Shown here: piece by piece, positions 6,754 to 31,070 of the stretch
How the letters are laid out: each line of letters opens with the position of its first letter
Position numbering within the stretch: the stretch's first letter is position 1
DNA from: Bacteroidales bacterium
GTDB lineage: Bacteria > Bacteroidota > Bacteroidia > Bacteroidales > UBA932
Assembly (NCBI GenBank): GCA_017446775.1
Contig: JAFSQE010000004.1
Coordinates: forward strand, 1 to 49,249
Length of the DNA stretch: 49,249 nt
Direction of reading: 5' to 3'
The notes under the pieces: model-generated
What the model was told of the DNA's origin: nothing
Seen by the model: the letters and a program-made list of their open reading frames with translations, nothing else
Databases searched by the model: none
Made by a program: the position numbers and the translations under genes

Positions 6754-7839
6754 TCAGATACCGAAGTACTCCCTGTACCTTTCGTACAGGTGCCCCGCCT
6801 GCAGGTATGCGGACTGGGGACTCATAAAGTGTGAAAATTCGAATGTGATGGCTTTGTCGTAGCCGCAGCGCTTCGCCGCCTCCAGTTTGAGGCGCAGTTT
6901 GTCGAATTTGATGGGGAAGAAATGTATGGGCATGTCCCTGTCAAAACTTTCTGCATTTGTCCAGCACTGCATTCCGTATCTGTCGGCCAGTTTTTTGTTT
7001 ACAGAGAAGAAGGCGTCCAGTTCGTCGTAGTCTATATGCCCGTCCTGGAATGCGCATGCATCTACATATTCGTGGATGCCGTCAAAAATCTCGTCCCACT
7101 CTTTTTCGTGCTGGGCGACAGACACGGCTTGCTCTTTGGTAAGGTTGGAACTGGTGGCCCCCACCGCCTTCTTGCCGTCAATCCAGGGAGATATGAAAGT
7201 TGGCAGTCCGCCAGAAACCTCCTTGCACTGCCGTCCCATGGTACGGAACGATTCAATAGCCCCTTTTGTCGCGCGGGAAATCTCTCCGGAGATGTACCAT
7301 CCGCCAAAGCTGCTGTACTTCTTGCCGTACATTTCCCATATCTCGTCTATGACATATTTGTTGGATTCGACCTCGTAACTCATGTCACCGGTATCCCAAT
7401 ACTGCCCCGAGTCGTAGAGTCCAAGCATAAACTTCATGTCATACTTTTGGGCAAGCCGGCAGAACATATCAATCAGGTCTACGGATGGCATGTAACACCC
7501 CTTGCCCAGGAGATATTTGGAGGGGTAGGTGATGAACTTGCGGTAGCCGCACCTAATGTCGATGACGGTATCTATGCCGATATCTTTCATATACCTGAAA
7601 TCCCGGTCCCATTCCCGTTCGCCCCAGTTCTGGTGGGGGATGTCGTGTGATATCTCATCCAGAAAAGTACCGGTGATGGGCAGGGCGTTGGCTTTTGGAA
7701 CAATCAGGTCGCCCGTCACGGCAGGGTCAGCTTCGATGCCCCATCTGTCTTTGTCGCAGGTGCTCTTGCAGGATGCAAGCAGGGGCGCTGAAGCAACAGC
7801 AAGGGCACTCTTTTTTAAGAAAGAACGTCTGTTTTCCAT
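6754..7839 (-). CDS. Tat-exported DUF4434 lipoprotein, putative glycosidase-like barrel
   Basis: 361 aa from the ATG at 7839; the longer frame only adds residues that would mask the signal. The N-terminus ENRRSFLKKSALA fits the twin-arginine motif and is followed by lipobox LLASC (Cys24), so this looks like a Tat-dependent lipoprotein. The mature part has ITGTFLDEIS, WDRDFRYMKDIGIDTVIDIR and GWYISGEIS, typical of DUF4434, a predicted TIM-barrel family often found with carbohydrate enzymes. Its reaction is unknown. It lies 19 bases after the ROK regulator gene and is probably in its operon. It converges tail to tail with the DUF2461 gene, and its context ties it to the glycan locus. Confidence 0.75.
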   Translation of the reverse strand: MENRRSFLKKSALAVASAPLLASCKSTCDKDRWGIEADPAVTGDLIVPKANALPITGTFLDEISHDIPHQNWGEREWDRDFRYMKDIGIDTVIDIRCGYRKFITYPSKYLLGKGCYMPSVDLIDMFCRLAQKYDMKFMLGLYDSGQYWDTGDMSYEVESNKYVIDEIWEMYGKKYSSFGGWYISGEISRATKGAIESFRTMGRQCKEVSGGLPTFISPWIDGKKAVGATSSNLTKEQAVSVAQHEKEWDEIFDGIHEYVDACAFQDGHIDYDELDAFFSVNKKLADRYGMQCWTNAESFDRDMPIHFFPIKFDKLRLKLEAAKRCGYDKAITFEFSHFMSPQSAYLQAGHLYERYREYFGI

Positions 7840-7858
7840 AATCTTGCAAGTATTATGA

Positions 7859-9055
7859 CTAATTATTGAGCATCCTGCTCTTTGCAAGCAGGCTGGCGCC
7901 GATAGCCCCGGCAGTTTTTCCGAGGTGGGAGGCCTTGATTATGGTGTCGTTGTTCACCAGGTTCAAGGAGAGTTTGTTGACCGCAATCTTAAGCGGCGGC
8001 ATAAGGTATCGTTCAGCAACGGAGAGGCGGCCTCCGATTATCACCATGTCCGGGTTGAAGATGTTTATCAGGCCAGCGACTGCGCGCCCGAGGGTTGCGC
8101 CGACCTCCTCTACGCACTCAATCGCGGTGACATCTTCTTTCTGGACTGCATCCAGGATATCGTCCAGCGATATTTCGCGGCCGTTGTTGCCATTCTCTGT
8201 GAGCAGCGAAGGCTGTCCTTCGCGAATGCGTTCCAGAACAAGGCGGTGCAGGGCTATCCCGGAAGCACCGGTTTCAAGGCAACCAATCTTTCCGCACTGG
8301 CAGATCTGGTTGTTGTCCAGCATGGGGAAGTGCCCGACCTCGCCGGAAAAGCCCGATTTGCCGTAGAACAGCTTGCCGTCAAGGACCATTCCCATACCAA
8401 GGCCCCATCCGACATTCAAAAACAAAATGTTGCTCGCCCCGGCAGCAATTCCACTCATGTATTCGCCGTAGGCCATGCCGTGTGAGTCGTTCTCTACGGA
8501 AACGGGCTTGCCAAAACCATCTTCCAGCAGGCTCTTTATGGGCTTTTCTTCGCTGATGAAATAAGAGTAGCTGTATCCCGTCTCGTGGTTCACGCGCCCG
8601 GTGAGGTTGACTCCGTAAGAGCGTACCTTGGTGCTGTCGATATGGGCTTTTTTGAGCCGCTCCAGTACGGCAGAACACATTCCGAGAACAGACTCTTCTG
8701 TGTTCTTGAGGCTGTATGGGACATCGTGCTCGAAGTGGACGACCCTGCCGGGGAAGTCAGTCACCGCAATGGATAGTCCATCCTGCCGTACGTCTATGCC
8801 CACAAAGAACCCCGCTTCTGGATTCAATCCGTATATGCTGGGACGCCTTCCGGATGCAGATTCCTGTTTGCCCAGATCGGCCAGGTAGCCCGTTTCTACC
8901 AGCTCGCTTACGATCCTGGATATTTTTGGAATACTGGTGTCAAGGTCTTTTGCCAAGTCGGCAAGGGAGAACCCGGATCCCTTTACGCACAGCTTAAGGA
9001 TGGTTCTCTTTTCGGCCGCATAGTGGCCGTTGATGTCATTTAAAAAAGAGGTCAT
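7859..9055 (-). CDS. ROK-family transcriptional regulator (NagC/XylR-like)
   Basis: 398 aa from the ATG at 9055 (MTSFLNDINGHYA). Residues about 20-75 form a winged helix-turn-helix (LADLAKDLDTSIPKISRIV followed by GRRPSIYGLN). A full ROK sugar-kinase-like domain follows with the zinc motif CQCGKIGCLE and GEVGHFP. Asp of ENDSHG, at the place of the kinase catalytic Asp, is kept, so residual kinase activity cannot be excluded. ROK regulators with this layout are usually sugar-responsive repressors. The gene is divergent from the epimerase-SusCD operon, which makes it the obvious local regulator. The 10-bp inverted repeat at 9107-9131 is a candidate operator. The effector is inferred to be an amino sugar. 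Confidence 0.88.
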   Translation of the reverse strand: MTSFLNDINGHYAAEKRTILKLCVKGSGFSLADLAKDLDTSIPKISRIVSELVETGYLADLGKQESASGRRPSIYGLNPEAGFFVGIDVRQDGLSIAVTDFPGRVVHFEHDVPYSLKNTEESVLGMCSAVLERLKKAHIDSTKVRSYGVNLTGRVNHETGYSYSYFISEEKPIKSLLEDGFGKPVSVENDSHGMAYGEYMSGIAAGASNILFLNVGWGLGMGMVLDGKLFYGKSGFSGEVGHFPMLDNNQICQCGKIGCLETGASGIALHRLVLERIREGQPSLLTENGNNGREISLDDILDAVQKEDVTAIECVEEVGATLGRAVAGLINIFNPDMVIIGGRLSVAERYLMPPLKIAVNKLSLNLVNNDTIIKASHLGKTAGAIGASLLAKSRMLNN

Positions 9056-9071
9056 ACAGTTATTTGTCGTG

Positions 9072-9079
9072 CAAAGATA
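9072..9079 (-). promoter_or_regulatory. -7 box of the ROK regulator promoter
   Basis: TATCTTTG on the minus strand lies 16 bases before the ATG at 9055. An ATTG at about 9098-9101, 18 bases upstream on that strand, could serve as the -33 element. The inverted repeat at 9107-9131 begins just beyond it. Confidence 0.5.
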
Positions 9080-9106
9080 CCAATTGTTTGTGAAAAGCAA
9101 TAATTA

Positions 9107-9131
9107 TATTTTTAACGTTTTGTTAAAAATA
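9107..9131. promoter_or_regulatory. Inverted repeat, candidate ROK operator
   Basis: Perfect 10-bp arms, TATTTTTAAC and GTTAAAAATA, are separated by the 5-base spacer GTTTT. The repeat sits between the two divergent promoters, one base from the -33 box of the epimerase promoter. ROK regulators such as NagC, Mlc and XylR bind AT-rich dyads with T-runs and A-runs about this far apart. Its use as an operator is inferred. Confidence 0.5.
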
Positions 9132-9132
9132 C

Positions 9133-9162
9133 TTGGTTATTTAATAATAGTTCGTAAATTTG
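9133..9162 (+). promoter_or_regulatory. Promoter of the epimerase-SusCD operon
   Basis: TTG at 9133-9135 and TAAATTTG at 9155-9162 are separated by 19 bases, which fits the Bacteroidota -33/-7 arrangement (TTTG, N19-21, TAnnTTTG). The ATG of the epimerase is 42 bases further on. The adjacent inverted repeat would let a bound regulator block this promoter. Confidence 0.55.
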
Positions 9163-9204
9163 TTTCACTGTGTTACGGTTTATTTGATAAAAACTTGCGC
9201 TGCA

Positions 9205-10392
9205 ATGACAGGAACAGACTTTGAAAAACTCGCGCATAAATACAATAGCGAGCTCTATGACAACATTTTACCCTTTTGGCTTGAGAAGTCGCAGGACTTA
9301 TCTTACGGTGGATATTTTACCTGCCTTAACAGAGACGGGAGTGTCTTTGATACCGACAAATTTGTGTGGCTGCAGGGGCGGCAGGTGTGGTTGTTTGCCA
9401 TGCTGTACAATAAGGTAGAGAAGAATCCCGCATGGCTTGAGTGTGCCCGGCAGGGGGCGGAGTTCCTTGATAAATATGGTCACGACGGCAACTACGACTT
9501 CTATTTCTCACTCACCCGCGATGGGCGGCCGATAATTCAGCCATATAACATATTCTCAAACACATTTGCATGCATGGCTTTCGCTCAGATGGCGGTTGCC
9601 ACATCAGACAGCCATTATGCCTATATCGCCCGCAGGACTTTCCAACGCATCCTGCTGCGCAGGGCCAACCCTAAAGGGGAGTGGAACAAAGCAGTTCCGG
9701 GGACCCGTCCCATGAAAGATTTCGCGTTGCCGATGATCATATGCAACATGGCACTGGAGGTAGAGCCGATAATAGAAGACAAGAGAGTGCTGGACAGCAC
9801 CATAGAAGAGGCTCTGCACGAAGTGTTCGATGTCTTCTATCAGCCCGACCTGGGGGTTATGGTAGAGAACCTTGCCCCCGACGGCACCCTGGTAGATTGT
9901 TTCGAAGGGCGCAAGATAAACCCCGGTCACGATCTTGAGGCATTGTGGTTTATGATGAATCTCGGGCTCAGGCTCAACCGGCAGGATGTCATAGATAAAA
10001 GTATGGAGATAGCGCTGCGGGTGATTGATTATGGATGGGACAAGGAGTATGGCGGCATATTCTACTTTATGGACCGCAAGGGATACCCTACACAGGAGCT
10101 GGAGTGGGATCAGAAACTCTGGTGGGTCCATTTTGAGAGCGCCATTACGATGATCAAGGGGTATCAGCTTACAGGCAATCCCAAGGCCCTGGAGTGGTTC
10201 CTCAAACTTGACGATTACCTCTGGAGCAAGTTCAAGGACCCCGAATATCCCGAATGGTTTGGCTATCTGAACCGCCGTGGAGAGGTACTCCTGCCGCTCA
10301 AAGGAGGCAAGTGGAAGGGCTGTTTCCACGTTCCGCGCGGTTTATACCAGATTGGCAATATACTTTCTCAAATAGCAAACACTTCAAAATAA
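9205..10392 (+). CDS. AGE-family N-acylglucosamine 2-epimerase
   Basis: 395 aa, the usual length for the AGE (alpha6/alpha6-barrel) superfamily. The start at 9205 gives MTGTDFEKLAHKY; the earlier Met reads through the promoter region. FVWLQGRQVWLF, NPGHDLEALW (His242) and KGCFHVPR (His375) are present. The last motif is like the renin-binding-protein/GlcNAc 2-epimerase branch rather than cellobiose 2-epimerases, so interconversion of GlcNAc and ManNAc in the cytoplasm is the best guess; another N-acyl sugar or mannose-type substrate remains possible. No signal peptide is seen. It is the first gene of the plus-strand operon, 10 bases before SusC, and its product would act after import. Confidence 0.8.
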   Translation: MTGTDFEKLAHKYNSELYDNILPFWLEKSQDLSYGGYFTCLNRDGSVFDTDKFVWLQGRQVWLFAMLYNKVEKNPAWLECARQGAEFLDKYGHDGNYDFYFSLTRDGRPIIQPYNIFSNTFACMAFAQMAVATSDSHYAYIARRTFQRILLRRANPKGEWNKAVPGTRPMKDFALPMIICNMALEVEPIIEDKRVLDSTIEEALHEVFDVFYQPDLGVMVENLAPDGTLVDCFEGRKINPGHDLEALWFMMNLGLRLNRQDVIDKSMEIALRVIDYGWDKEYGGIFYFMDRKGYPTQELEWDQKLWWVHFESAITMIKGYQLTGNPKALEWFLKLDDYLWSKFKDPEYPEWFGYLNRRGEVLLPLKGGKWKGCFHVPRGLYQIGNILSQIANTSK

Positions 10393-10402
10393 CACAACGC
10401 AG

Positions 10403-13400
10403 ATGAAACAATTATTCCGATTCTTGACGCTTGCCCTGGCCGGAGTTCTCCTTGCCACGGCACCCGTTTTTGCCCAGACGAGGCTCTCGGGCAAAGTTAC
10501 CGATTCGGACGGTCAGCCTCTTGCCGGAGTCACGGTGATGGTAAAAGGTACCTCAAACGGCACTGTGACCGGAGCAGACGGAACATACTCGCTGCGGGTT
10601 TTCGAGGGTGATGTGATAGAGTTCTTCTGTCTTGGACTGGCTACTGAACAACGCTCTTTTACCGGGCAGACTTCCCTTAATGTCAGAATGAAAGAGGATA
10701 CACTCTTCTTGGAAGAGACTGTTGTGGTTGGTTACGGAACTGTGAGGAAGGAGACATTGACGGCCGCTGTCTCTGCCATAAAGGGAGAAGAGCTCCTGAA
10801 GGCCCCTGCGACAAATGTGTCACAGGTACTTGCCGGTAAGTTGCCGGGTATATCTTCTGTCCAGGAGTCGGGTGAGCCCGGTCTGGACCAGGCTTCCTTG
10901 CGTATCCGCGGCTCGGTTTACGGAGTCGCATATGTTGTGGACGGTTTCCCGGTGGATAATATAAACGACATAGATCCGGCCGACATAGAGAGTGTATCTG
11001 TGCTAAAGGATGGTGCGTCTGCTGCCGTATATGGTTTGAAGGCGGCCGGCGGTGTGATAATCATTACCACCAAACGCGGCGCTAAGGGGACTCCGACAAT
11101 TACTTATAACGGATCTGTGGGTGTCTCGATGAACGCCAACTTCCCCAGGTTCATGAACGGACCCCAGTTTGCCTATTATTACAACCTGGCTCAGGAAATG
11201 GACCAGCTGGCAAGCGGGGCGATTGCCTCGGAAGATGAGTACGAGCCCTATTTCACACTGGCCAATGTGGAGGCAATGCTCAATGGGGACCCCACCGACG
11301 GATGGGACAATGTCGATTACATCAAGAAGGTGTTTGGCACGGGCCGCACATCCAAGCACAACGTCACGGTGCAGGGGGGTAACGACAACACCAAATACTT
11401 TATCTCTGCCGGGTATCTGGGGCAGAAAGGTAATGTAGAGGGCTACAACTATTACAGGTATAATGTGCGCACCAACATAGAGAGCCGCCTTGCAAAGCAT
11501 CTGGTTTTCAATGCAGGACTCAGCGGTGTGGTATCGCGCCGCGAGACTCCGCGGTTTCTTTCCGGCGGCTCCGACGGTTCAGAGTCCGGGGCGACATCGG
11601 AGGTGGGCTGGTTCTCAGTAGCGCATCAGGTAATCGGTATCCATCCGTACCTTCCCGAGACCTATAACGGTTATTATACCGGCTCGATAGCTACAAACCA
11701 GGCCTATCCCTACAGCCCTCTGGCGGCGCTCTATCAGTCTGGTTCCAAAAAGACCAACGGCTTTACCGGTACCCTTAACACGGGCCTGACCTGGGAGATT
11801 CCGTGGGTGAAGGGCCTTCAGGCAAAGGTGAGCGGTTCGTATGACTATCACAACTCTTACAACAAGAATCTCGATACCCCCTATTATGTGATTGTCCGCC
11901 GCAAGAATGCCGACGGTACATGGGGCTGGACCACCCCTATGATTGATGTCAACGGTACCGCCAACGGCATCAAACTGGGCGAGGGAACGGTGTATTCCCA
12001 GACGATGACTGCCCAGGCGAGCCTGTCGTATGTCAACTCTTTCGGCCCGCACAACATAGAGGCGCTGGCGCTTGCCGAAATCCGCGACTGGCAGACCAAC
12101 AATCTCAGCGCGTATGTGCGCAACCTGCCGTTTGCGCTTCTTCCGGAATTGAAAAACGGAACCCCCACTGCAAATCCCGTGAGTGGTTCCAGCAATGCTT
12201 CCCGCAGCGCAGGTTATGTGGGGCGCGTGCGTTACAATTACGACGAAAGATACCTGGCAGAATTTACCGGACGTTACGACGGCTCTTACAAGTTCGCCGG
12301 GATGACCCGCACCCGCTGGGGCTTCTTCCCCTCCGCATCTGTTGGCTGGAACATATCAAATGAGGATTTCATGCAGGGCTTTGCCGCTCTCGACAACCTC
12401 AAGGTGCGTGTCTCTGCCGGTTTGCTCGGTAACGACGGCGTCAGCCCCTATATGTTCCTTAGCAAATATGCCGCTGGAGGCAAAGTCGTGTATACAGGCG
12501 GTTCCGGGGTTCCCTCTTATTACACCTCCGGCATTCCCAACAAGGACCTGACCTGGGAGAAGACCCTGTCGTACAACGCCGGTTTTGACTTCTCCCTGTG
12601 GAACGGACTTCTGGGCGGAGAAATAGATGCATTTTACAATTATACATTCGACATCCTCTCTTACAATGGCGGCGGGCATCCCGATTCCATGGGTGGTTAC
12701 TTCCCCACCTATGTAAATGGCAATGCAATCGACAGCAAGGGTATAGACGTACTCATTACACACCGCAACCATTTTGACCTTACAGGCAAGCCCTTCTTCT
12801 ATGAACTGGCCGGGACGGTGACCTATTCCAAGACCCGCTGGCTCAAGTATAACGACAATCCCAATATCGCAGAGTGGCAGAAAGTAACAGGCACTACCTA
12901 CGGTGCAATAGACGGATGGCTGGCAGAGGGACTCTATCGTACAGAAGAGGAGATTGACAACTCGGCATGGTACGGTAACTCACGCCCCAACATCGGCGAT
13001 ATCAAATACGTTGACCTTAATGGCGACGGCGTGATAGACTGGTCGGGCGACCGTGGAATATTCGGCAAAAGCAACAGGCCGGAACTCACTTTCGGGTTGA
13101 ATGTGAATGCCACGTGGAACGGATTTGACCTGAACCTCCAGTTCACAGGAGGAGCCCTGTTCCAGGTATCGATGCTGGGTAATTACTACAACGGGAATGA
13201 CGACAATACAGTGTGGACCCGCACCTTCAAGGAGGGTGGCAATTCGCCGCTTTTCCTGGTAGAGAATGCATACAGCCTTGACAATCCAGACGGAATCTTC
13301 CCCAGACTGACCCTTGGCAATACCGGACACGGCGGCCATAACGGTCTCAACTCCAGCTTCTGGTGGAGAGATGGAACCTATGTCCGCCTCAAAACGGCCC

Positions 13401-13594
13401 GGATGGGGTACACCATTCCCCAGTCGTTTACCCGCAAGTTCAGCGTAGAGGCCCTGCGAATCTTTGTAGAGGGGAATAACATATTCACCATCGACGGCCT
13501 CCCCGAAGGAATAGACCCCGAGTCACCGGGTGTGAACAACGGCTACTATCCTCAACAGAGAAACCTGATGGGCGGTATTACAATAACCTTATAA
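10403..13594 (+). CDS. SusC/RagA-family TonB-linked outer-membrane transporter
   Basis: 1063 aa. Signal peptide ending at VFAQ; a carboxypeptidase-D regulatory-like domain (RLSGKVTDSDGQPLAGVTV, residues about 27-105); the SusC linker ETVVVGYGTVRKETLTAAV; a TonB plug domain (VSQVLAGKLPGIS, ASLRIRG, VVDGFPVDNIND); and a long beta-barrel. It forms the outer-membrane gate for an oligosaccharide or glycoconjugate, with SusD as its lid. There is no N-terminal STN extension, so control through an anti-sigma factor is not indicated, in line with ROK control. The usual SusD partner is 13 bases downstream. The sequence alone does not reveal the substrate. Confidence 0.95.
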   Translation: MKQLFRFLTLALAGVLLATAPVFAQTRLSGKVTDSDGQPLAGVTVMVKGTSNGTVTGADGTYSLRVFEGDVIEFFCLGLATEQRSFTGQTSLNVRMKEDTLFLEETVVVGYGTVRKETLTAAVSAIKGEELLKAPATNVSQVLAGKLPGISSVQESGEPGLDQASLRIRGSVYGVAYVVDGFPVDNINDIDPADIESVSVLKDGASAAVYGLKAAGGVIIITTKRGAKGTPTITYNGSVGVSMNANFPRFMNGPQFAYYYNLAQEMDQLASGAIASEDEYEPYFTLANVEAMLNGDPTDGWDNVDYIKKVFGTGRTSKHNVTVQGGNDNTKYFISAGYLGQKGNVEGYNYYRYNVRTNIESRLAKHLVFNAGLSGVVSRRETPRFLSGGSDGSESGATSEVGWFSVAHQVIGIHPYLPETYNGYYTGSIATNQAYPYSPLAALYQSGSKKTNGFTGTLNTGLTWEIPWVKGLQAKVSGSYDYHNSYNKNLDTPYYVIVRRKNADGTWGWTTPMIDVNGTANGIKLGEGTVYSQTMTAQASLSYVNSFGPHNIEALALAEIRDWQTNNLSAYVRNLPFALLPELKNGTPTANPVSGSSNASRSAGYVGRVRYNYDERYLAEFTGRYDGSYKFAGMTRTRWGFFPSASVGWNISNEDFMQGFAALDNLKVRVSAGLLGNDGVSPYMFLSKYAAGGKVVYTGGSGVPSYYTSGIPNKDLTWEKTLSYNAGFDFSLWNGLLGGEIDAFYNYTFDILSYNGGGHPDSMGGYFPTYVNGNAIDSKGIDVLITHRNHFDLTGKPFFYELAGTVTYSKTRWLKYNDNPNIAEWQKVTGTTYGAIDGWLAEGLYRTEEEIDNSAWYGNSRPNIGDIKYVDLNGDGVIDWSGDRGIFGKSNRPELTFGLNVNATWNGFDLNLQFTGGALFQVSMLGNYYNGNDDNTVWTRTFKEGGNSPLFLVENAYSLDNPDGIFPRLTLGNTGHGGHNGLNSSFWWRDGTYVRLKTARMGYTIPQSFTRKFSVEALRIFVEGNNIFTIDGLPEGIDPESPGVNNGYYPQQRNLMGGITITL

Positions 13595-13607
13595 ACCGGA
13601 ATGCCTT

Positions 13608-15254
13608 ATGAAAAAGATTATCATTATCCTTTCTCTCTGCTGCGTTCTGGCAGCATGCAACGATTATCTGGATATGACTCCCCGCGACAGCATCTCCGAC
13701 AAGGTGATGTGGGCCACCACAGAGAGTGCAGAATATGCTGTTAACAGCATCTACTCATACGCTTATGACATATTTGCCAGCTGGCCCAGCCAGGTGGGTA
13801 TGACAGAGGCTTTCACCGACGAACTCAAGTACGGCTCCTATGTAAATTTCGCCTATTGTTATATTCCCAGCCGGGTAGCTTACGGCGGTGCGGACCTCAC
13901 AGCCAACTTCGTATCGGTATATCTGGGGTGCTGGTCGTCGCTTTACAGCGCAATAAGACGTACAAATGAGGCTATCAGCAATCTCAAGTCACTTGGCGGC
14001 GGGCTTGACCAGACCAGCCAGGTCCGTCTTCAGGCAGAGCTGCGGCTGATGCGCGGCTGGCTCTATTTCGAGCTGATGAAGCGCTACAAGGAGGTTATCA
14101 TATACGACGAAGATCTCTCGAAAATCAGCATAGACAAAGCCCTCTCTACAGAAGAGGAGGGGTGGGATTTTGTGTTGCAGGACCTTCAGTATGCTGCCGA
14201 TAACCTGCCGGAGAAGGCGATGGCGAAGGGCCGTTTGGATAAAGGTGCTGCCTACGCGCTGATTTCCCGCTCTATGCTTTATGCAGAGCGCTGGGGCGAG
14301 GTTATAACGGCTGTCGATGCTCTCGAAGAACTTGGCTATGGCCTGCTTGACGACTATGCGAGCGTGTTTACCGTATCGGGCAACAAGGAGTCCATACTGC
14401 AGTATAATTTCTCTTACAGCGATGCCGTCTATCACGAATTTGATTTCTACTACACCCCGGGAGGAGACTACAAGCTGGTGGACCAGCAGGGTGGTGGCTA
14501 CGGCACTCCCACGCAGGAGATGGTCGAGAGTTACGAACTTGCGACCGGCGGATTCCCCGACTGGAGCCCCTGGCATGGCGCTACTACGGCAGAACCGCCT
14601 TATGCACAGCTGGAACCGCGCTTCCAGGCCACTATATTATATAACGGAGCCTCCTGGAAAGGGCGGACAATTGAGCCGTATGTGGGAGGAACAGACGGTT
14701 GGTGCCAATGGAACAAGGAGCCACAGCCGCAGGGCCGCACAACAACCGGTTATTATCTCCGTAAGTGGGTGGACGAGGGGCACAATTTGCTTGAACGCAC
14801 ACAGAGTACCCAGCACTTTGTGCTGCTGCGCTACGGCGAGGCTTTGCTGAATAAGGCAGAGGCTTGCTATCACAGAAACGATCCCGCCGGCGCAAATGCC
14901 GCCATAAGGGCCATCCGGTCGAGAGTCGGGCTCCCTTACACCGACAGAAGCGGTGTCGCCCTCTGGCAGGCCATCAGGCAGGAGCGTCGTATAGAACTTG
15001 CTTTTGAAGGTCTCTGGTACTGGGACTTGCGCCGCTGGGAAGAGGCGGCGGAGGTGTATCCTACCGGACTCAATTCCTATCAGGTACATGGCCTAAAGAT
15101 AGAGCCCACTGCGGTCGACGGCGAGTTCCTCTATACGTATGTGTCTGTGGATGACAATGACCGCAACTTCCCCGCTAAAATGTATCGCTTCCCCATGCCG
15201 GAAAGCGAAATGAGTTCTAATTCCCTTGTTGAACAATATCCAGAATGGAGGTAA
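13608..15254 (+). CDS. SusD/RagB-family nutrient-binding lipoprotein
   Basis: 548 aa. Lipobox LAAC gives Cys17 and the mature start NDYLDMTPRD is typical of SusD. TPR-like helices include RLDKGAAYALISRSMLY. The conserved C-terminal region has GEALLNKAEACY, GANAAIRAIRSRVGLP and RQERRIELAFEGLWYWDLRRW. SusD proteins cap SusC at the cell surface and bind the incoming glycan. The gene lies directly between SusC and the DUF5018-like lipoprotein, the standard order for SusC, SusD and an accessory surface glycan-binding protein. It stops two bases before the next start. Confidence 0.95.
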   Translation: MKKIIIILSLCCVLAACNDYLDMTPRDSISDKVMWATTESAEYAVNSIYSYAYDIFASWPSQVGMTEAFTDELKYGSYVNFAYCYIPSRVAYGGADLTANFVSVYLGCWSSLYSAIRRTNEAISNLKSLGGGLDQTSQVRLQAELRLMRGWLYFELMKRYKEVIIYDEDLSKISIDKALSTEEEGWDFVLQDLQYAADNLPEKAMAKGRLDKGAAYALISRSMLYAERWGEVITAVDALEELGYGLLDDYASVFTVSGNKESILQYNFSYSDAVYHEFDFYYTPGGDYKLVDQQGGGYGTPTQEMVESYELATGGFPDWSPWHGATTAEPPYAQLEPRFQATILYNGASWKGRTIEPYVGGTDGWCQWNKEPQPQGRTTTGYYLRKWVDEGHNLLERTQSTQHFVLLRYGEALLNKAEACYHRNDPAGANAAIRAIRSRVGLPYTDRSGVALWQAIRQERRIELAFEGLWYWDLRRWEEAAEVYPTGLNSYQVHGLKIEPTAVDGEFLYTYVSVDDNDRNFPAKMYRFPMPESEMSSNSLVEQYPEWR

Positions 15255-15256
15255 TT

Positions 15257-18039: not shown

Positions 18040-18040
18040 G

Positions 18041-19432: not shown

Positions 19433-19456
19433 TATCAATCAATAAATCAATCAGTT

Positions 19457-21439
19457 ATGAAACAGTTTAAACTTTTGGCACTTCTTTCGCTCGTATTGCT
19501 GGCAATCTCCTGCGAGAAGAAAGAGGATCCCTTCCTGACACTGAACTCCGATGAGGCAGTTACGGTGTCCGTAGAGGGGGATGCGGTGAGCATCAAAATC
19601 AACACAAATGTTGCATGGACAGCCAAGTCCTCGCAGACATGGCTCTCTATCACTCCCAACAGCGGCGAGGGTGTAAAAGGCGGTACGGATTTCACAATCA
19701 AGGCTTCGGTACTGAAAAACGATGATACCGATACCCGTACAGCAACTGTCACCATTACCGCCGGCTCTCTTACAAAGACAGTTACCATAACCCAGGGCCA
19801 GAAAGATGCCCTTGAAGTTGATGTAACCGAATACGAGGTTCCCCAGGAAGGTGGTATTGTAGAAGTAGAGGTCAATTCCAACGTAGAGTACACGGTGTCA
19901 ATTCCCGAGGCTATAGACTGGGTATCACTGGCTTCTGGCAGGGGAATGGCTAAATCCACGGTGAACCTGGCAGTCGATCCGAACTATGAAGAGGCAACGG
20001 AAGAGGCTCCCAACAGGGTTGCCAACATCACTATCACAAGCGGTGCACTCTCCAAGACCATCAAGATTATCCAGGCACCATTCGAGCCCTACTTCGAACT
20101 TCAGGGAGAGTGGGCAGGCATCCAGTGGAGCGCTTACGGCGAACCTACGATAATCCCCCGCGAGGGTATTTCAATTACTATCCCCGTCGCGACAAATCTC
20201 GACTGGAGACCGTACTTCTCTTACTGGAGCGATGAGGCCGGCGGAAGCGTACAGACCGACGACCTTGGCTGGGTGCACCTGAGCTTCGATAAGGAAAAGG
20301 CAGAAATATACCTGGTATTTGACGAGAACACCACCAACTTCTCCCGTGAACACTACTTCTACATCGAGTGCTACAACCACGATGGCAGCAAAAATGGTGC
20401 ATACGGCGGAACCGGCCACTATGTACAGGAAGGAGTAAAAGTAGAAGGCGCTGCCTATGAGGTGGTTTGGAACAAGAAACTCAGTGAGGTAGGTATTCCC
20501 GCAGCATATAACCGTATCGCCTACAAGACTGCCGGCGGTCCCGCCCTTGTCATCTCCGACGGTGAGAAAGTACACGCGATGGGACCTAACAACGGTGCAT
20601 ACTACAAGGCAATTACCTGGAGCACCGTTACGCCCGCTTCAATCTGCAGCGACGATGCCGGCAATGTGATTGTTGCCGACCACACAGCAATGGAATCGGG
20701 GACCACATACTCTGTATATTATACATCTGACATCAATGCAGATCCAGTCAAGCTCTTCGACCAGACTTCTGACTTTGCCGGAACTATCGGCGCGTGGAGA
20801 GTCCGTGGCGATATCTCTACGGCGGCCATGATTACTGCAGTTGTCGGTGGCGACCCTGCATACTGGGCAGGCTGGGAGATAAAGGACAAAGTTGTGTCTC
20901 TGGACAACACCTATGTACAGGGCACAGGCGGTCAGAACCGCGGCCCCGCAACCGGTACTGTATGGAGCCCTCTCAACGGCGCTTGCATGGCATTGGGTAC
21001 CACTGCAGCATCCGGCATTTACTTCCGCGGCTACGACGGGACAAGAGCCGTCCAGCTGCTTGCCGATGCAACATGCCCCAACTGGGTAACTCCCTATGTA
21101 TGGACTCCCGTGATTACCCTTGGCGATGGCGGTAACGAAAGCCAGAACAGTATGTCTATTGTCGACTATAACGGCAAAAGGATCCTGGCGATGACACAGG
21201 GTTATCACTTCGCTTACTCAGGTAATGGTAATATCTTCGTCCTGGATGTTACAGACGCTGCAAATCCCGTTATGCTTCTTGATATCAAGCCCGGTGACTG
21301 GATTATTACTGAAGAGAATGATTTCTCGGGCCAGACAGGTTCAGACGTGCTGCTGCGTCCCGGCGACGGTGTCCTCGAGCTCTATGCTATAAACTCCGGA
21401 CGTCCGACTCTTGCACGCTTCAATCTGATTATTCCTTAG
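19457..21439 (+). CDS. BACON-domain surface lipoprotein with propeller-like C-terminus
   Basis: 660 aa. Lipobox AISC gives Cys19, followed by EKKED, a strong acidic surface-export context. Two consecutive BACON domains follow at roughly residues 27-115 and 118-205, each with the pattern of NTNVAWTAKSSQTWLSI and an ending like TVTITQGQ. The remaining 440 residues form repeated beta units, for example SICSDDAGNVIVADHT and NGNIFVLDVTDAANP, suggesting a propeller. BACON domains occur in Bacteroidota surface carbohydrate proteins, so a glycan-binding or scaffold role is likely. No catalytic motif was recognised. It sits between the two GHL10 genes and is followed by a terminator-like hairpin. Confidence 0.75.
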   Translation: MKQFKLLALLSLVLLAISCEKKEDPFLTLNSDEAVTVSVEGDAVSIKINTNVAWTAKSSQTWLSITPNSGEGVKGGTDFTIKASVLKNDDTDTRTATVTITAGSLTKTVTITQGQKDALEVDVTEYEVPQEGGIVEVEVNSNVEYTVSIPEAIDWVSLASGRGMAKSTVNLAVDPNYEEATEEAPNRVANITITSGALSKTIKIIQAPFEPYFELQGEWAGIQWSAYGEPTIIPREGISITIPVATNLDWRPYFSYWSDEAGGSVQTDDLGWVHLSFDKEKAEIYLVFDENTTNFSREHYFYIECYNHDGSKNGAYGGTGHYVQEGVKVEGAAYEVVWNKKLSEVGIPAAYNRIAYKTAGGPALVISDGEKVHAMGPNNGAYYKAITWSTVTPASICSDDAGNVIVADHTAMESGTTYSVYYTSDINADPVKLFDQTSDFAGTIGAWRVRGDISTAAMITAVVGGDPAYWAGWEIKDKVVSLDNTYVQGTGGQNRGPATGTVWSPLNGACMALGTTAASGIYFRGYDGTRAVQLLADATCPNWVTPYVWTPVITLGDGGNESQNSMSIVDYNGKRILAMTQGYHFAYSGNGNIFVLDVTDAANPVMLLDIKPGDWIITEENDFSGQTGSDVLLRPGDGVLELYAINSGRPTLARFNLIIP

Positions 21440-21459
21440 TATCATTGATTATCGAATCT

Positions 21460-21505
21460 GCGGGGGCGCTGCGCTCTTCACCGGGCTCATGCACCCCCGC
21501 TTTTT
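21460..21505 (+). terminator. Possible Rho-independent terminator between BACON gene and GHL10 copy B
   Basis: Stem GCGGGGG (21460-21466) pairs with CCCCCGC (21494-21500), followed by TTTTT. The 27-base loop is long. It could reduce read-through into the downstream part of the locus, making GHL10-B, the acetyltransferase, the oxidoreductase and the transporter less expressed. I see no strong promoter after it. Confidence 0.5.
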
Positions 21506-21515
21506 ATAAACAATC

Positions 21516-22802
21516 ATGAAATTACGCAACTTGTTGCTGGCGGCGACGCTGTTGCTTATGACCGCCTGCTCGCCCAAACCCCAGCAAAAGATCCGAATGG
21601 TCTGGATAGAGGTCGGCGCCAATTTTGAGCGGTATGCATCCAGCCTGGACAATATCGCTGCCGACTGCCGTCGCCTTGCCGATGGGGGCTACACCCACAT
21701 AGTGGTTGAGGTGCGTCCCACCAGCGGGGACGTGCTCTTTTGCAGTGACGTTGCCCCACAGCTGCGAGAGGTGGCGCTCTGGCGAAGTGGCGGACTGCAG
21801 TTTGTCCCGCGCGAGGCCGATTTTGACTATTTGCAGGCTTTCATAGATGCCGGCCACGCCGCCGGGCTGAAAGTACTGGCGGGGGTGAATGTCATGGTGG
21901 GCGGTTTCCGGTGCGATGCCGGCTGTAGAGGTATGCTTTACGACCATCCCGGGTTGCGCGACTGGGCGGCGGTCGATTTGACTTTTGGCGGGCTGCAGAA
22001 CCATCTAGACGATTCCACAACCGTCGGCGGCCGATTCTTGGATCCGGCCAATGGCCAGGTGCAGGAATTTCTGCTGGATATGCTTGCCGATGTCGCTGCC
22101 TATGAAGAACTGGACGGCGTGGTTCTGGACCGCTGTCGTTACGACGACTATGCGATGGATGCGGGATATACAGAGGCCGCGCACAAGGCTTTCTGCGATT
22201 ATCTTGGCCGTGCACCTGAGCGATGGCCGGTTTTTGAAGAGCCGGGGCATATCTTTCTGGACAGAGAGCCGGATGAACTTGAGGTGAAATGGCTCACTTT
22301 CCGCTGCAAGACAATCCATGACTTTGTGGCAAGAGCGGTAGACCGGATACACGCCGTCCGCCCCGATCTCAAGGTGGGCGTATATGTCGGCGCCTGGTTC
22401 AGCGAATATTACAGAAGCGGTGTCAACTGGACAAGCCCGAAGTACCCTTTGGCTTTGGAAGAGGAGACATTCAGGTGGGCTACCCCCGAATACCAGGCAA
22501 CCGGATTTGCCGATCTGGTGGACTTTATGCTGCTTGGAGCCTATTGTCCTGCGGATAATATCCACGGCGACGTGGAAAAAACGATGGAGGGCTTTGCGAA
22601 GCTTGGGGCTAAACGTCTCTGCGGCGAGGTACCCTTTGTGGCGGGCCCAGACATCGGCAACCAGCCAGGCTTCCAGAATGGCGGACGTGCCGATATCCTG
22701 CCCGAGATAGCCCGGACGATGGACGGGATCTGCGACGGATGTTTTATTTTCGATATGTGTTACATCCGCGCTTTTGATTATTGGGACGCACTCAGGAATT
22801 GA
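21516..22802 (+). CDS. GHL10-like family 10 glycosyl-hydrolase-like lipoprotein, copy B
   Basis: 428 aa. Lipobox MTAC gives Cys18, followed by SPKPQQK with no acidic cluster, so it is predicted to stay in the periplasm, unlike copy A. It matches copy A along its whole length: VRPTSGDVLF, FLDPANGQVQEFLLDML, DGVVLDRCRYDD (Asp205 equivalent to Asp233 of copy A) and GAWFSEYYRSGVNWTSP. The two are clearly an ancient local duplication rather than a recent copy, since many positions differ. The function is inferred to be hydrolysis of a glycan, or another reaction on the same barrel. It stops two bases before the acetyltransferase start. Confidence 0.75.
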   Translation: MKLRNLLLAATLLLMTACSPKPQQKIRMVWIEVGANFERYASSLDNIAADCRRLADGGYTHIVVEVRPTSGDVLFCSDVAPQLREVALWRSGGLQFVPREADFDYLQAFIDAGHAAGLKVLAGVNVMVGGFRCDAGCRGMLYDHPGLRDWAAVDLTFGGLQNHLDDSTTVGGRFLDPANGQVQEFLLDMLADVAAYEELDGVVLDRCRYDDYAMDAGYTEAAHKAFCDYLGRAPERWPVFEEPGHIFLDREPDELEVKWLTFRCKTIHDFVARAVDRIHAVRPDLKVGVYVGAWFSEYYRSGVNWTSPKYPLALEEETFRWATPEYQATGFADLVDFMLLGAYCPADNIHGDVEKTMEGFAKLGAKRLCGEVPFVAGPDIGNQPGFQNGGRADILPEIARTMDGICDGCFIFDMCYIRAFDYWDALRN

Positions 22803-22804
22803 TT

Positions 22805-23956
22805 ATGGATAAAAGGAATCTGGCCATAGACATATTCAGGGGGCTGACAGTGGCTCTGATGGTTTGCGTCAACGATTTTTGGGCGGTGCATAATGTCCCG
22901 CACTTTCTGGAGCATTTTGCCGTAATGGAAGACGGTATGGGACTGTCCGACATCATCTATCCGATGTTCCTGTTTGCAATGGGAATGTCGGTACCATTGG
23001 CTCTGGAGCGTCGCTTTCAGAAGGGATACACCTTGGAAACGACTCTGCGTCATATCCTGGGCCGTACCCTTGCCTTGCTGCTGATGGGCTCTTTCATAGT
23101 CAATTCCGAGTCGGGAATAGCTTGGAACAAAGGGATTTTCTGGCTCATGATGGTAGTCGGTTTCTTTCTGGTGTGGAATAATTACAGAGAAGGTTTCAAG
23201 TTTAAAAAGCCATTGCGATGGCTCGGCATCGTGATTCTGGCCGGATTGGCGATAACGTTCAGAAGTCCCGACGGCGGCCTTTTCAGATCCAGTTGGTGGG
23301 GTATTCTGGGCCAGATCGGCTGGATGTATCTCTTCTGCGCACTGGCTTATATCCTGTGCCGCAGACGATGGTGGATACTGATTGTCCTTTGGGTTGTATT
23401 CTGCCTGGTGAACATTTCCGTGGCCCCGATGCGCGACGGTTCAGAGCTTCTTGGCGGCAACTATGTCGCAGACTTCTCGGATGCTCTGCATCTTGGCAAC
23501 GGCCATAGCATAATAATGGCCCTTGGAGGTGTGATATGCGTGCTGGCAGATCAGAAACTCAAGAAGCACCGGCTGGTCACAGGGCTTGTCGCATCGGTTG
23601 CGCTTGCGCTTCTGGCAGCCCTGACCCACAAATGGTGGATTGTTTCCAAAGGGCTGGGTACGCTGCCATGGTGTCTGTATGTATCTGCCATATCGGTGGC
23701 ACTTTATTCGCTGCTCCGTAGTTTGGAACTTAAAGGGCTTACCGCCTGGGCCAGACCTGTCGATCCCGCAGGAAAGGCCACCCTCACGGTGTATATGCTA
23801 CCTTACTTCTTCTATAGTTTTTGGATATTCCTCGCGCCCACGGTTCCGGCTTGGATGTCGGGATGGGCCGGGGTTGCAAAGTGTGCACTGTTCTCCGCTC
23901 TCTGCATAGTCTCCGCATGGGGGCTTGGCAAGATGGGTGTCAAACTCAAGATATAA
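22805..23956 (+). CDS. HGSNAT-like transmembrane N-acetyltransferase (DUF5009/DUF1624 group)
   Basis: 383 aa from the ATG at 22805 (MDKRNLAIDIFRGLTVALM). About ten hydrophobic segments are visible. The N-terminal DIFRGLTVALM and the block EDGMGLSDIIYPMFLF fit the heparan-alpha-glucosaminide N-acetyltransferase family, which moves acetyl groups from cytoplasmic acetyl-CoA across the membrane to glucosamine outside. The histidines in HFLEHFAVMEDG are candidates for the acetyl-carrying residue; which one is equivalent to the human catalytic His needs an alignment. In this locus it could acetylate glucosamine in the periplasm so that GlcNAc-specific enzymes can act. Acyl donor and acceptor are inferred. 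Confidence 0.7.
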   Translation: MDKRNLAIDIFRGLTVALMVCVNDFWAVHNVPHFLEHFAVMEDGMGLSDIIYPMFLFAMGMSVPLALERRFQKGYTLETTLRHILGRTLALLLMGSFIVNSESGIAWNKGIFWLMMVVGFFLVWNNYREGFKFKKPLRWLGIVILAGLAITFRSPDGGLFRSSWWGILGQIGWMYLFCALAYILCRRRWWILIVLWVVFCLVNISVAPMRDGSELLGGNYVADFSDALHLGNGHSIIMALGGVICVLADQKLKKHRLVTGLVASVALALLAALTHKWWIVSKGLGTLPWCLYVSAISVALYSLLRSLELKGLTAWARPVDPAGKATLTVYMLPYFFYSFWIFLAPTVPAWMSGWAGVAKCALFSALCIVSAWGLGKMGVKLKI

Positions 23957-23969
23957 CGATACAGTAAAT

Positions 23970-25469
23970 ATGAAGAAATATCTTTTGCTTTTCCTGATGC
24001 TGAGCATGGTTTGCTGCGCCCGCCGCTACGACGTGGTGGTTGTGGGTGGAGGCACGGGCGGGAGTGCTGCCGCCATTGAGGCGGCACGATGCGGTGCGTG
24101 CACACTTGTGGTGGAGCAGACCCCCTGGCTTGGCGGGATGCTCACCAGTGCAGGCGTGAGCGCAATAGACGGCAATTACAAGCTCCGCGGTGGCATTTTT
24201 GGTGAGTTCACCGACTCCCTGGCTCTCCGCTACGGCGGTTACGACAATCTTAAATCGGGCTGGGTCAGCAATATCCTCTTCAATCCCAAAGTAGGGGCGA
24301 GGGTGCTTTCAAACATGGCAGACGAGGCCGGAGTAAAGGTCCGCTATGGGACATCGCTGGTCCGGGCAGACAGCATCGATGGTGGCTGGCGTTTAAAACT
24401 ATCCGACGGATCCACACTATTTGCAAAGGTTCTGATAGACGGTACCGAACTTGGTGATGTTTCCAGAATGGTGGGGGCGGCGCAGTTGGATGACAGGCAT
24501 TATGTGCAGGATATGACATACGTGGCGATAGTCAAGTTCTACGACCACGAAGTGCTGATAGATATGCCCGAGGATTATGACATAGAGTATTACCGCAGTT
24601 GTTGTGACAATCCGCTCGCAGAGAATAACGGTGGATTCAACCCGCTTGGCCAACAGCTGTGGAGTGAAGAGATGATGCTTTCCTACGGCCGGTTGCCGGA
24701 TGGGTACGTGATGCTCAACTGGCCTATCTATGCAAATGACTATTACGCAGAATATCTTGATATGACGGTGGCGGAGCGGGATGAATTGTACCGTAAGGCC
24801 AAAAACCGCACGCTGGGTTATATCTATTTCCTTCAGCACGAGCTGGGATACACCACTCTGGGTGTTGCCGACGATGTCTATCCCACAGAAGACCGATTGC
24901 CCTTCTTCCCCTATTTCAGGGAAGCGGCAAGGGTGGCCGGCCGCGATACAATGACAGTGGCTGCAGCAAAGAATCCATACGAATACGACTTGTACACACG
25001 TGCAGTGGCGGTAGGGGACTACCCTGTTGACCACCATCACATCCAGAATCCTCACCGGGAAGAACTCTCACACTTATGGTTTGGCAAGATCCCCTCTTTC
25101 AGCGTGCCGCTGGGGGTGGTCATCCCTATAAGTGTAGATAATCTGCTGGTGGCCGACAAGGCTGTGTCGGTAAGTTGGGAGATGAACGGCGCGGTGCGTC
25201 TGCAACCGGTGATAATGGGCTTGGGACAGGCAGCCGGTGCGCTTGCAGCCATTGCGGCAGGCAGCGGCAGAAAGCCGTCAGAGGTACCCTCAGCCGAGGT
25301 CCAGGCTCTTTTGCTGGATCATGGCTGCTATCTGATGCCCTTCCTGGACCTGAAGCCGGATGAGCCCGGATTCAGGGACCTTCAACAGCAGGGGGTCAGG
25401 GGTGAAGTCCGCGGCAAGGGACGCACCGTAGGATGGGCAAACGAAACATGGGTAAATCTTCCCCGGTAA
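23970..25469 (+). CDS. Exported FAD-dependent oxidoreductase (FAD_oxidored family)
   Basis: 499 aa from the ATG at 23970. A short hydrophobic signal (KKYLLLFLMLSMVCC) with a possible lipobox at SMVC runs straight into RYDVVVVGGGTGGSAA, the dinucleotide-binding Rossmann fold with GxGxxG-type glycines. The downstream block LGGMLTSAGVSAIDG and the late NLLVADKAVSVS and AVRLQPVIMGLGQAAGA match PF12831-type FAD oxidoreductases common in glycan loci. A flavoprotein with a Sec-like rather than a twin-arginine signal would have to take up FAD outside the cytoplasm. The substrate is unknown; oxidation of a sugar hydroxyl is an inference. The stop overlaps the likely start of the transporter (TAATG). 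Confidence 0.75.
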   Translation: MKKYLLLFLMLSMVCCARRYDVVVVGGGTGGSAAAIEAARCGACTLVVEQTPWLGGMLTSAGVSAIDGNYKLRGGIFGEFTDSLALRYGGYDNLKSGWVSNILFNPKVGARVLSNMADEAGVKVRYGTSLVRADSIDGGWRLKLSDGSTLFAKVLIDGTELGDVSRMVGAAQLDDRHYVQDMTYVAIVKFYDHEVLIDMPEDYDIEYYRSCCDNPLAENNGGFNPLGQQLWSEEMMLSYGRLPDGYVMLNWPIYANDYYAEYLDMTVAERDELYRKAKNRTLGYIYFLQHELGYTTLGVADDVYPTEDRLPFFPYFREAARVAGRDTMTVAAAKNPYEYDLYTRAVAVGDYPVDHHHIQNPHREELSHLWFGKIPSFSVPLGVVIPISVDNLLVADKAVSVSWEMNGAVRLQPVIMGLGQAAGALAAIAAGSGRKPSEVPSAEVQALLLDHGCYLMPFLDLKPDEPGFRDLQQQGVRGEVRGKGRTVGWANETWVNLPR

Positions 25470-26869
25470 TGTTAAACGACAATATTATGAAGCAAAAAGT
25501 AAGTGCTTATGTGGTTTTCCTGTCGGTTGTGGCTGCCATTGGCGGAATCCTTTTTGGCTATGACACGGCGGTTATCTCCGGTACCACGGAGATAGTCAAG
25601 ATCCAGTTCGGCCTCTCCACAGGGATGGAGGGCTGGTATGTCGGCTGCGCCCTGATAGGCTCAATCCTTGGCGTGCTGATTGCCGGGATGCTGTCAGATT
25701 TCCTGGGGCGCAAGAAAACGATGCTGACAGCGGCGTTGATGTTTTCTATTTCTGCCATTGGCTGTGCCGTTTGTGCCAACTTCACGCAGCTTGTAATCTA
25801 CCGTATTATCGGCGGGGTAGGCATCGGCATAGTGTCTATAGTGTCGCCCATCTATATCTCTGAGGTATCGCCGGCCCGCGTCAGGGGTACTATGGTAAGT
25901 TTCTACCAGCTGTTTATTACCATCGGTTTTCTGCTGGCATATCTTGTGAATTTCTTCATCTTGAAGGGCGCAGCGCTGGATTCCGGTGATCCGGGACTTG
26001 GCGCAAGGATGTTCAATAACGAGTACTGGCGAGGCATGCTGGGCTGTGAGACTATCCCCGATTTGTTGTTCCTGATAGTGATATTCTTTATCCCTGAGAG
26101 TCCCCGGTGGCTCATCGTCAAAGGTCATGACCCCAGGGCACTGGCCATTTTGAGGCGGATTTACGCCAGCGACAGCGAGGCTCAGGCCGGTCTGGCAGAA
26201 ACCCGGGAGTCCATTGCCGGGGAGGTCAAGACGGAGTGGAAGACAATGCTGGAGCCCGGTATCCGCAAGGCGGTGCTGGTGGGCAGTGCAATTGCCATCC
26301 TGGGGCAGTTCATGGGTGTCAATGCGGTGTTGTATTATGGCCCCAAGATTTTTACCGATGCCGGCTTTTCCGATCCGCTGTTCTCTACCGTGCTGGTTGG
26401 AATAGTGAATATGCTTACCACCGTCATAGCGCTTGCAATCATTGACAAGGTGGGGCGCAAGAATCTTGTCTGGTGGGGCGTCGGCGGTATGATATTCTGC
26501 CTGCTGATGATAGGTCTCTATTTTTTGCCGTTCACCAATCTGCCCAACTGGTTCATGCTTACGTTCTTCCTGCTTTATGTCTTCTGCACGGCCATCTCCA
26601 TCAGCGCCGTGGTGTTTGTGTTGCTGAGCGAGATGTATCCCAACCGTGTCCGCGGCATGGCGATGTCAATAGCGGGCTTTGCCCTCTGGATCGGTACATA
26701 TCTTATCGGCCAGCTCACCCCATGGATGCTGGAGACACTCACCCCCGCAGGCACCTTCTTCCTCTTCGCATTTATGTGCCTGCCGTACCTGTGGATTATG
26801 TACAGGTATGTCCCCGATACTACCGGAAAGACCCTTGAAGAGATAGAAGAGTACTGGAAGAAACGATAA
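25469..26869 (+). CDS. MFS sugar porter (XylE/GalP-like)
   Basis: 466 aa from the ATG at 25469, which overlaps the previous stop; ATG 25487 (MKQKVSAYVV) is equally possible. Twelve hydrophobic segments and the sugar-porter signatures are present: GYDTAVISG in TM1, DFLGRKKTML between TM2 and TM3, PESPRWL before the central loop, GQFMGVNAVLYYGP in TM7, DKVGRKN, and PDTTGKTLEEIEEYW at the C-terminus. Most sugar porters have QQ at the start of the TM7 motif, here GQ. It would import a released monosaccharide by proton symport through the inner membrane, feeding the cytoplasmic epimerase. It is the last gene of the locus. Confidence 0.9.
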   Translation: MLNDNIMKQKVSAYVVFLSVVAAIGGILFGYDTAVISGTTEIVKIQFGLSTGMEGWYVGCALIGSILGVLIAGMLSDFLGRKKTMLTAALMFSISAIGCAVCANFTQLVIYRIIGGVGIGIVSIVSPIYISEVSPARVRGTMVSFYQLFITIGFLLAYLVNFFILKGAALDSGDPGLGARMFNNEYWRGMLGCETIPDLLFLIVIFFIPESPRWLIVKGHDPRALAILRRIYASDSEAQAGLAETRESIAGEVKTEWKTMLEPGIRKAVLVGSAIAILGQFMGVNAVLYYGPKIFTDAGFSDPLFSTVLVGIVNMLTTVIALAIIDKVGRKNLVWWGVGGMIFCLLMIGLYFLPFTNLPNWFMLTFFLLYVFCTAISISAVVFVLLSEMYPNRVRGMAMSIAGFALWIGTYLIGQLTPWMLETLTPAGTFFLFAFMCLPYLWIMYRYVPDTTGKTLEEIEEYWKKR

Positions 26870-31003: not shown

Positions 31004-31030
31004 CCGAAAAAAGTGAGTGGTATCAATCCG

Positions 31031-31038: not shown

Positions 31039-31070
31039 GCAATTCAAATAATATAAGGCGATTTTTTCTT

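Follow-up and report, generated by a model that had tools for sequence, protein, structure and literature searches.

Which glycan does the SusCD locus at positions 6754-26869 of a Bacteroidales contig (JAFSQE010000004.1, assembly GCA_017446775.1) serve, and in which direction does its sugar epimerase work? The locus lies in a stretch of 49,249 nucleotides that was analysed as a whole (the window), in which a first-pass annotation had named SusC/SusD, a NAGPA phosphodiester glycosidase, two GHL10 barrels, an HGSNAT-like acetyltransferase, an FAD oxidoreductase, a DUF4434 lipoprotein, an N-acylglucosamine 2-epimerase (AGE), a major facilitator superfamily (MFS) sugar porter and a ROK regulator. 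Pfam and NCBIfam scans recovered every one of these families above Pfam cut-offs within a run of 13 genes, together with two further lipoproteins missing from the earlier list, DUF5018 and BACON. We tentatively read the run, at somewhat less than even confidence, as a polysaccharide-utilisation locus for a phosphodiester-bearing glycan containing N-acetylmannosamine (ManNAc) and N-acetylglucosamine (GlcNAc), most likely a bacterial envelope polymer. The genes follow one another tightly, with several overlaps; the plus strand carries 11 of them and the minus strand DUF4434 and ROK:

6754-7839, minus: DUF4434 TIM-barrel lipoprotein with twin-arginine translocation (Tat) motif and lipobox, candidate glycosidase (DUF4434, 278.6 bits)
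7859-9055, minus: ROK/NagC-like regulator (PF00480, 188 bits; top NCBIfam match TransRegNagC, under its cut-off; predicted start)
9107-9131, no strand: perfect 10+5+10 inverted repeat between ROK and AGE, candidate ROK operator
9205-10392, plus: AGE (GlcNAc_2-epim, 240 bits; NF052547, 647.7 bits; predicted start)
10403-13594, plus: SusC-type TonB-dependent transporter (TonB plug; TIGR04056, 855 bits)
13608-15254, plus: SusD-type lipoprotein (SusD_RagB PF07980, 185 bits; lipobox LAAC)
15257-16999, plus: DUF5018 lipoprotein 3' of SusD, probable surface glycan-binding protein (PF16410, 359.5 bits; lipobox; predicted start)
16996-18039, plus: NAGPA-type phosphodiester glycosidase lipoprotein (PF09992, 103 bits; NGG, RTA and LDGGGS motifs)
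18041-19432, plus: GHL10+DUF4985 barrel a (PF02638, 46.5 bits, and PF16373)
19457-21439, plus: BACON-domain lipoprotein, probable glycan binding (PF13004, 69 bits)
21516-22802, plus: GHL10+DUF4985 barrel b (GHL10, 46.5 bits; 57% identity to barrel a)
22805-23956, plus: HGSNAT/DUF5009-like membrane acyltransferase (PF07786, 33.5 bits; PF16401, 28 bits; predicted start)
23970-25469, plus: FAD-dependent oxidoreductase, probably exported (PF12831, 266.8 bits; hydrophobic N-terminus before the FAD motif; predicted start)
25433-26869, plus: sugar-porter MFS transporter (Sugar_tr PF00083, 383.7 bits; TIGR00879, 376 bits, above its cut-off)

The adjacency of SusC and SusD, accompanied by lipoproteins and degradative enzymes, marks the run as a SusCD polysaccharide-utilisation locus, and the lipoboxes of DUF4434, SusD, DUF5018, NAGPA, BACON and GHL10b suggest that these proteins are located at the surface.

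The locus is not a chance assembly. Two genomes of the same genus (G033 and G091) carry all 13 of the 13 genes in identical order at 77-92% protein identity, the former with an additional 367-aa open reading frame (ORF) between ROK and DUF4434, and in a third (G102) a contig end falls inside the gene run. Within the genus the locus is accessory and patchily distributed, with a NAGPA match in four of the 12 same-genus genomes listed (the source genome included) and none in the other eight. Across 393 genomes of the order, the DUF4434 clade is present in 19, the NAGPA clade in seven and the AGE clade in 27, the last defined by a cut of E < 1e-150 (27 of 43 genomes) that was chosen after we had seen an identity gap between 54% and 47%. 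DUF4434 accompanies NAGPA in six of the seven genomes (hypergeometric 3.7e-8, or 6.6e-7 without the source genome) and the AGE clade accompanies DUF4434 in 16 of 19 (1.0e-18, or 1.3e-17), all of these values being uncorrected for kinship.

Co-occurrence of these genes next to SusCD, as the first-pass annotation had expected, was borne out around NAGPA. We examined 18 NAGPA-anchored places, comprising the 13 strongest besides the window and five of seven further order-level ones (G173 and a second place in G499 were left out); five of the 18 had been sampled around DUF4434, and contig ends truncate several of the stretches. Within 20 kb we found GHL10 in 14 places, DUF5018 in 13, SusC and SusD in 12 each, DUF4434 in 11, MFS in nine, AGE, FAD, HGSNAT/DUF5009, metallophosphoesterase and GDSL/CE2 in eight each, and ROK and BACON in six each; two places have no partner at all and one has a GDSL/CE2 match only. 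Among the 13 places that were not taken via DUF4434, all of the window's own NAGPA family, GHL10 is present in 10, DUF4434 in six and AGE in four.

Anchoring on DUF4434 gives a different emphasis. At least 512 DUF4434-related stretches were found in one genome collection, and we analysed the best 80 of 512, so that the counts lean to near relatives; the closest of the 80 come mostly from metagenome-assembled genomes of rumen and foregut Bacteroidales, and contig ends truncate many of the loci, so that partners are undercounted. MFS is present in 66, SusC in 56, AGE in 48, ROK in 47, SusD in 39, DUF5018 in 29, GHL10a in 25, NAGPA in 20, FAD in 11, GHL10b and metallophosphoesterase in five each, DUF5009 in four, BACON in two and HGSNAT in one. 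The core thus consists of ROK, DUF4434, MFS and AGE, with SusCD, DUF5018, GHL10, NAGPA, the FAD oxidoreductase and, in relatives, a phosphoesterase as frequent partners, and HGSNAT is optional. A tally by family of other neighbour proteins (92 of 109 selected) showed no dominant glycosidase among the first 25 of 89 families. The earlier statement that no classical glycoside hydrolase (GH) is present holds for the window and fails for its relatives, where GH97, GH28, GH3, GH43, GH20, GH84 and GH89 occur. In three genomes of one genus (G112, G090 and G032; loci L008, L009 and L010) the NAGPA matches each contain one in-frame TAA, which may reflect decay or a boundary effect.

The direction of the epimerase bears on the choice of substrate. 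The window protein belongs to the AGE family: its NF052547 score exceeds the equivalog cut-off of 600, and phmmer relates it to the AGE structures 6f04 (E 2.8e-146) and 2gz6 (E 3.3e-144), with conserved blocks common to both. When we hand-chose 18 AGE-centred regions away from DUF4434 loci (three of them short contigs), a DHDPS-family lyase gene stood alongside AGE in eight. The AGEs of these eight regions are 46-66% identical to the window AGE, two of them falling under the AGE-clade cut, and all five lyases tested scored best with the N-acetylneuraminate lyase model, each under its cut-off. One such region (L194), whose AGE is 66% identical to that of the window, also encodes a fusion of sialate mutarotase and symporter (NANM-SSF). 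A single clade for AGEs in lyase context was rejected (approximately unbiased test, p 6.7e-96), which fits an exchange of enzymes between sialate and DUF4434 contexts. In the underlying trees L113, L130, L164 and G481 were relabelled by hand to the DUF4434 context (DUF4434 matches are present there and the gene was displaced or split by ORF calling); duplicate rows G206 and G464 were removed from both trees, and the careful tree also lacks four distant rows and identical sequences.

The sialate pathway requires the epimerase to work from ManNAc to GlcNAc. The window genome encodes NagA and NagB above cut-off; no ManNAc-6-phosphate epimerase (NanE) was found above cut-off in it (two weak matches lie below) and no N-acetylneuraminate lyase was recognised (its two DHDPS matches are DapA and a weak match to the DapA model only), absences that are not proof because the genome is 97.2% complete. 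Because related AGEs recur in sialate operons, and because the genome offers NagA and NagB without a recognised NanE, the window AGE probably converts ManNAc to GlcNAc. The opposite direction, GlcNAc to ManNAc, had been part of the first-pass annotation and is probably wrong, as is the re-acetylation step proposed with it. Since no lyase, mutarotase or sialidase was found among the scanned window proteins, the locus differs from a sialate (nan) operon, and the simplest reading is that it would supply ManNAc directly for conversion to GlcNAc by AGE.

A plausible source of that ManNAc is the DUF4434 protein. It is a TIM barrel in which E202 follows the strand 194-198 and E313 the strand 307-311, at moderate local confidence, matching the clan GH-A rule of glutamates after strands 4 and 7, and both residues are invariant in 16 of 16 sequences. 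After the own-family structure 4h41, fold ranks 2-19 are taken up by Cwp19 (two rows) and mannanases or mannosidases (16 rows). Because of the barrel, the two invariant glutamates and a fold nearest to Cwp19 and beta-mannosidases after its own family, we regard DUF4434 as a candidate N-acetylmannosaminidase.

The phosphodiester theme rests first on NAGPA. The window protein retains the NGG, RTA, LDGGGS and PSD motifs along with the Pfam domain and thus falls within the NAGPA family; the first three motifs align with solved NAGPA chains such as 6pku. In this it resembles human NAGPA, the mannose-6-phosphate uncovering enzyme, and differs from it as a bacterial lipoprotein, known from its sequence, that is well aligned over the C-terminal part only. 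Modelling has also placed a NAGPA-like domain in depolymerases of prophages from a Gram-positive genus (PMC9862828, as far as the accessible part of that paper goes). The theme gained strength from the metallophosphoesterases in eight of 18 NAGPA places and from a fusion in G206 (L080:4969-7644), where a single 891-aa protein joins GHL10, DUF4985 and a calcineurin-type phosphoesterase. For the calcineurin-like family MetallophosC (PF16370), 12 of 38 genomes have a member no more than about 23 kb from DUF4434 or AGE and 25 of 38 have one anywhere, the window genome on another contig. GDPD was rejected as a regular partner: it is in the cluster for only two of 23 genomes (G402 and G500) and somewhere in the genome for 22 of 23. 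One of these clusters (L078:88-2832, in G500) encodes a 914-aa protein with GDPD, GxDLY, GDSL_3 and DUF4855 domains. Support for the amino-sugar side, also part of the earlier proposal, comes from AGE and from the GH20 or GH84 and the GH89 of single relatives. Taken as an amino-sugar, phosphodiester glycan locus, the run is reasonably described.

The family profile of the window GHL10 proteins matches Cwp19 at E 2.4e-7 and PgaB weakly (0.017). Cwp19 of Clostridioides difficile, itself a GHL10 protein, is described as a peptidoglycan lytic transglycosylase (PMC6016235), and an active-site role for its Asp196 has been put forward as a suggestion (PMC5765458), in both cases according to the accessible parts of the papers. 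In the alignment of window-type GHL10 proteins this position holds Arg in 17 of 18 sequences and Tyr in one, and the window proteins add a C-terminal DUF4985. Because Asp196 is replaced, we rejected the transfer of proven lytic transglycosylase activity to the window barrels. Elsewhere a GHL10-DUF4985 unit is fused to a SASA esterase (L090:2254-4938 in G457, 894 aa).

The HGSNAT-like protein matches HGSNAT_cat over profile positions 1-86 of 222 only. Its translation contains DxxR in the first and FxxxxG in the second transmembrane helix, the motifs of TmAT/HGSNAT acyltransferases (PMC12423673, accessible part). HGSNAT or DUF5009 is present in eight of 18 NAGPA-anchored places as against one (HGSNAT) and four (DUF5009) of the 80 DUF4434 loci, many of which are contig-cut. 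Since it is optional across loci, we rejected re-acetylation by HGSNAT as a core step. The locus in G434 adjoins a gene for a 1048-aa protein (L103:1128-4274) in which FAD_oxidored matches three stretches and a Tat signal scores under its cut-off.

A new type of locus had been suggested, but Bacteroides thetaiotaomicron has counterparts, so that the type is not wholly new and is already known as a predicted system lacking a substrate. The DUF4434 protein of PDB 4h41 is BT_0435, 74% identical to that of the window over the aligned part, and BT_0436 and BT_0437 are presumably an MFS transporter and an AGE. In the rest of this cluster (BT_0435-BT0443) SusCD is close by as BT0439-0440, whereas GH89 (BT0438) and DUF4855 (BT0442) are features of that cluster, and the accessible part of the source names no NAGPA or GHL10 there (PMC10434189). 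The neighbouring cluster BT0446-BT0454 is likewise similar, with DUF5009, a family-10-like glycosylhydrolase, a calcineurin-like phosphoesterase and a second family-10-like glycosylhydrolase as BT0446-0449, and SusD, SusC and a sugar-porter MFS within BT0451-0454 (PMC10434189). It differs from the window in the phosphoesterase, which many relatives share, and in that no NAGPA is named in the accessible text; its substrate is described as unknown. Publications matching BT_0435 were, by title and abstract start, not about this locus system. Other literature queries yielded no publication, one of them perhaps because its wording was too strict.

How, then, might the parts work together? SusD-type proteins bind glycans at the surface and SusC-type proteins import them, and the ManNAc-GlcNAc-1-P unit attached to N-acetylmuramic acid (MurNAc), ManNAc-GlcNAc-1-P-MurNAc, is the linkage unit of wall teichoic acid. 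We suggest that SusD, DUF5018 and BACON would bind the glycan and SusC import it, that NAGPA would cleave a GlcNAc-1-phosphodiester, and that the two GHL10 barrels and DUF4434 would cut glycosidic bonds, DUF4434 freeing ManNAc. The amino sugars would enter the cell through the MFS porter, AGE would turn ManNAc into GlcNAc, as its gene context suggests, and GlcNAc, once phosphorylated, would feed the NagA-NagB route; ROK may repress the genes through the 9107-9131 palindrome, and the HGSNAT-like and FAD proteins would be accessory. ManNAc as such occurs mainly in bacterial envelopes, and because the locus is predicted to free it, we place the substrate there; this placement and the activity of DUF4434 are the bold steps of the argument. 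Our favourite specific guess is the wall-teichoic-acid linkage unit. In its most specific form, the proposal would be a dedicated scavenging of linkage units of Gram-positive wall teichoic acid or related ManNAc-GlcNAc phosphoglycans, with DUF4434 as the first recognised N-acetylmannosaminidase family and NAGPA cutting the GlcNAc-1-P bond between polymer and peptidoglycan, which we consider unlikely as a whole. If envelope glycans are indeed the substrate, gut and rumen Bacteroidales would have a widespread, unrecognised route for feeding on envelopes made by other bacteria, DUF4434 could be given a definite enzymatic role open to testing, and the two B. thetaiotaomicron clusters would gain a candidate substrate. 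Should the substrate be something else, functional studies in a tractable organism would still have a clear starting point in the conserved ROK-DUF4434-MFS-AGE core.

The core could instead be a mobile monosaccharide module common to loci for different glycans, with NAGPA, GHL10 and SusCD defining one substrate of many. That it is kept while SusC spans about 25 to 79% identity, that partner hydrolases vary (GH20, GH84, melibiase, DUF6259, GH3 and GH43) and that NAGPA and FAD occur in only 20 and 11 of the 80 DUF4434 loci all speak for it; yet GHL10 and DUF5018, in 14 and 13 of 18 NAGPA places, show that the outer genes form a conserved set of their own, and the truncation of many loci at contig ends depresses the counts, so that we rate it as unlikely. 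To our knowledge, host and dietary alpha-GlcNAc glycans contain no ManNAc, and a substrate of this kind (a mucin cap, a heparan-like glycan or the head group of a plant glycolipid), from which NAGPA and GH89 would remove alpha-GlcNAc while HGSNAT re-acetylates glucosamine, would therefore leave AGE unexplained. Neither the window genome nor G033, G091 and G102, all of which have the locus, yielded a GH89, and HGSNAT is optional. What recommends such a substrate is the presence of GH89 near AGE or DUF4434 in G041 and G311 and 19 kb from AGE in G497, together with B. thetaiotaomicron, whose operons are described as induced in vivo: BT0438, tabled with SusCD BT0439-0440 (PMC10434189), is an active GH89 alpha-GlcNAcase (PMC8225759), and BT0439 was detected on galacto- and milk oligosaccharides and termed a host-glycan-implicated transporter (PMC5238430), as reported in the accessible parts of these sources. 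On balance we think a host or dietary glycan unlikely.

The kinship of AGE with sialate operons would also suit a locus that handles products of sialoglycan breakdown and takes up ManNAc made by other organisms or extracellularly. SASA esterases in some clusters point the same way, as does G206, where a lyase-AGE pair adjoins DUF4434, except that this pair uses a distant AGE (36% identity); with no lyase or sialidase among the scanned proteins of the window, we hold this to be improbable. Less probable still is the original scheme, in which HGSNAT re-acetylates a GlcNAc-phosphate polymer, import takes place as GlcNAc, and AGE converts this to ManNAc. The NAGPA, AGE and HGSNAT-like genes it invokes are truly present, but a catabolic locus in a genome with NagA and NagB has no need to make ManNAc from GlcNAc, NanE is unrecognised, AGE elsewhere keeps company with sialate breakdown, and the rarity of HGSNAT and DUF5009 among DUF4434 loci tells against the acetylation step. 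Our preferred reading remains an envelope glycan that contains both amino sugars.

Regulation may centre on the perfect palindrome between the divergent ROK and AGE genes, for which 100 shuffles gave no match. Its core arms are identical in G033 and G091, where the spacers differ, and the core pattern was found nowhere else in the 211 loci searched (2.9 Mb, partly overlapping). In relatives, eight of the 24 intergenic regions next to a divergent ROK gene contain a nine-base perfect palindrome, where mononucleotide shuffles would give 0.88; a TTTTTAA core is common to four of the eight and absent from the other four.

Beyond the locus, an exported-looking protein free of Pfam matches is encoded right after the MFS gene (26985-27653, minus), followed by two minus-strand ORFs with a 196-base overlap (28737-30017, without a Pfam match, and 29822-31042, with AIRS domains), and a tRNA-Arg (acg) lies at 48984-49058, close to the end of the window.

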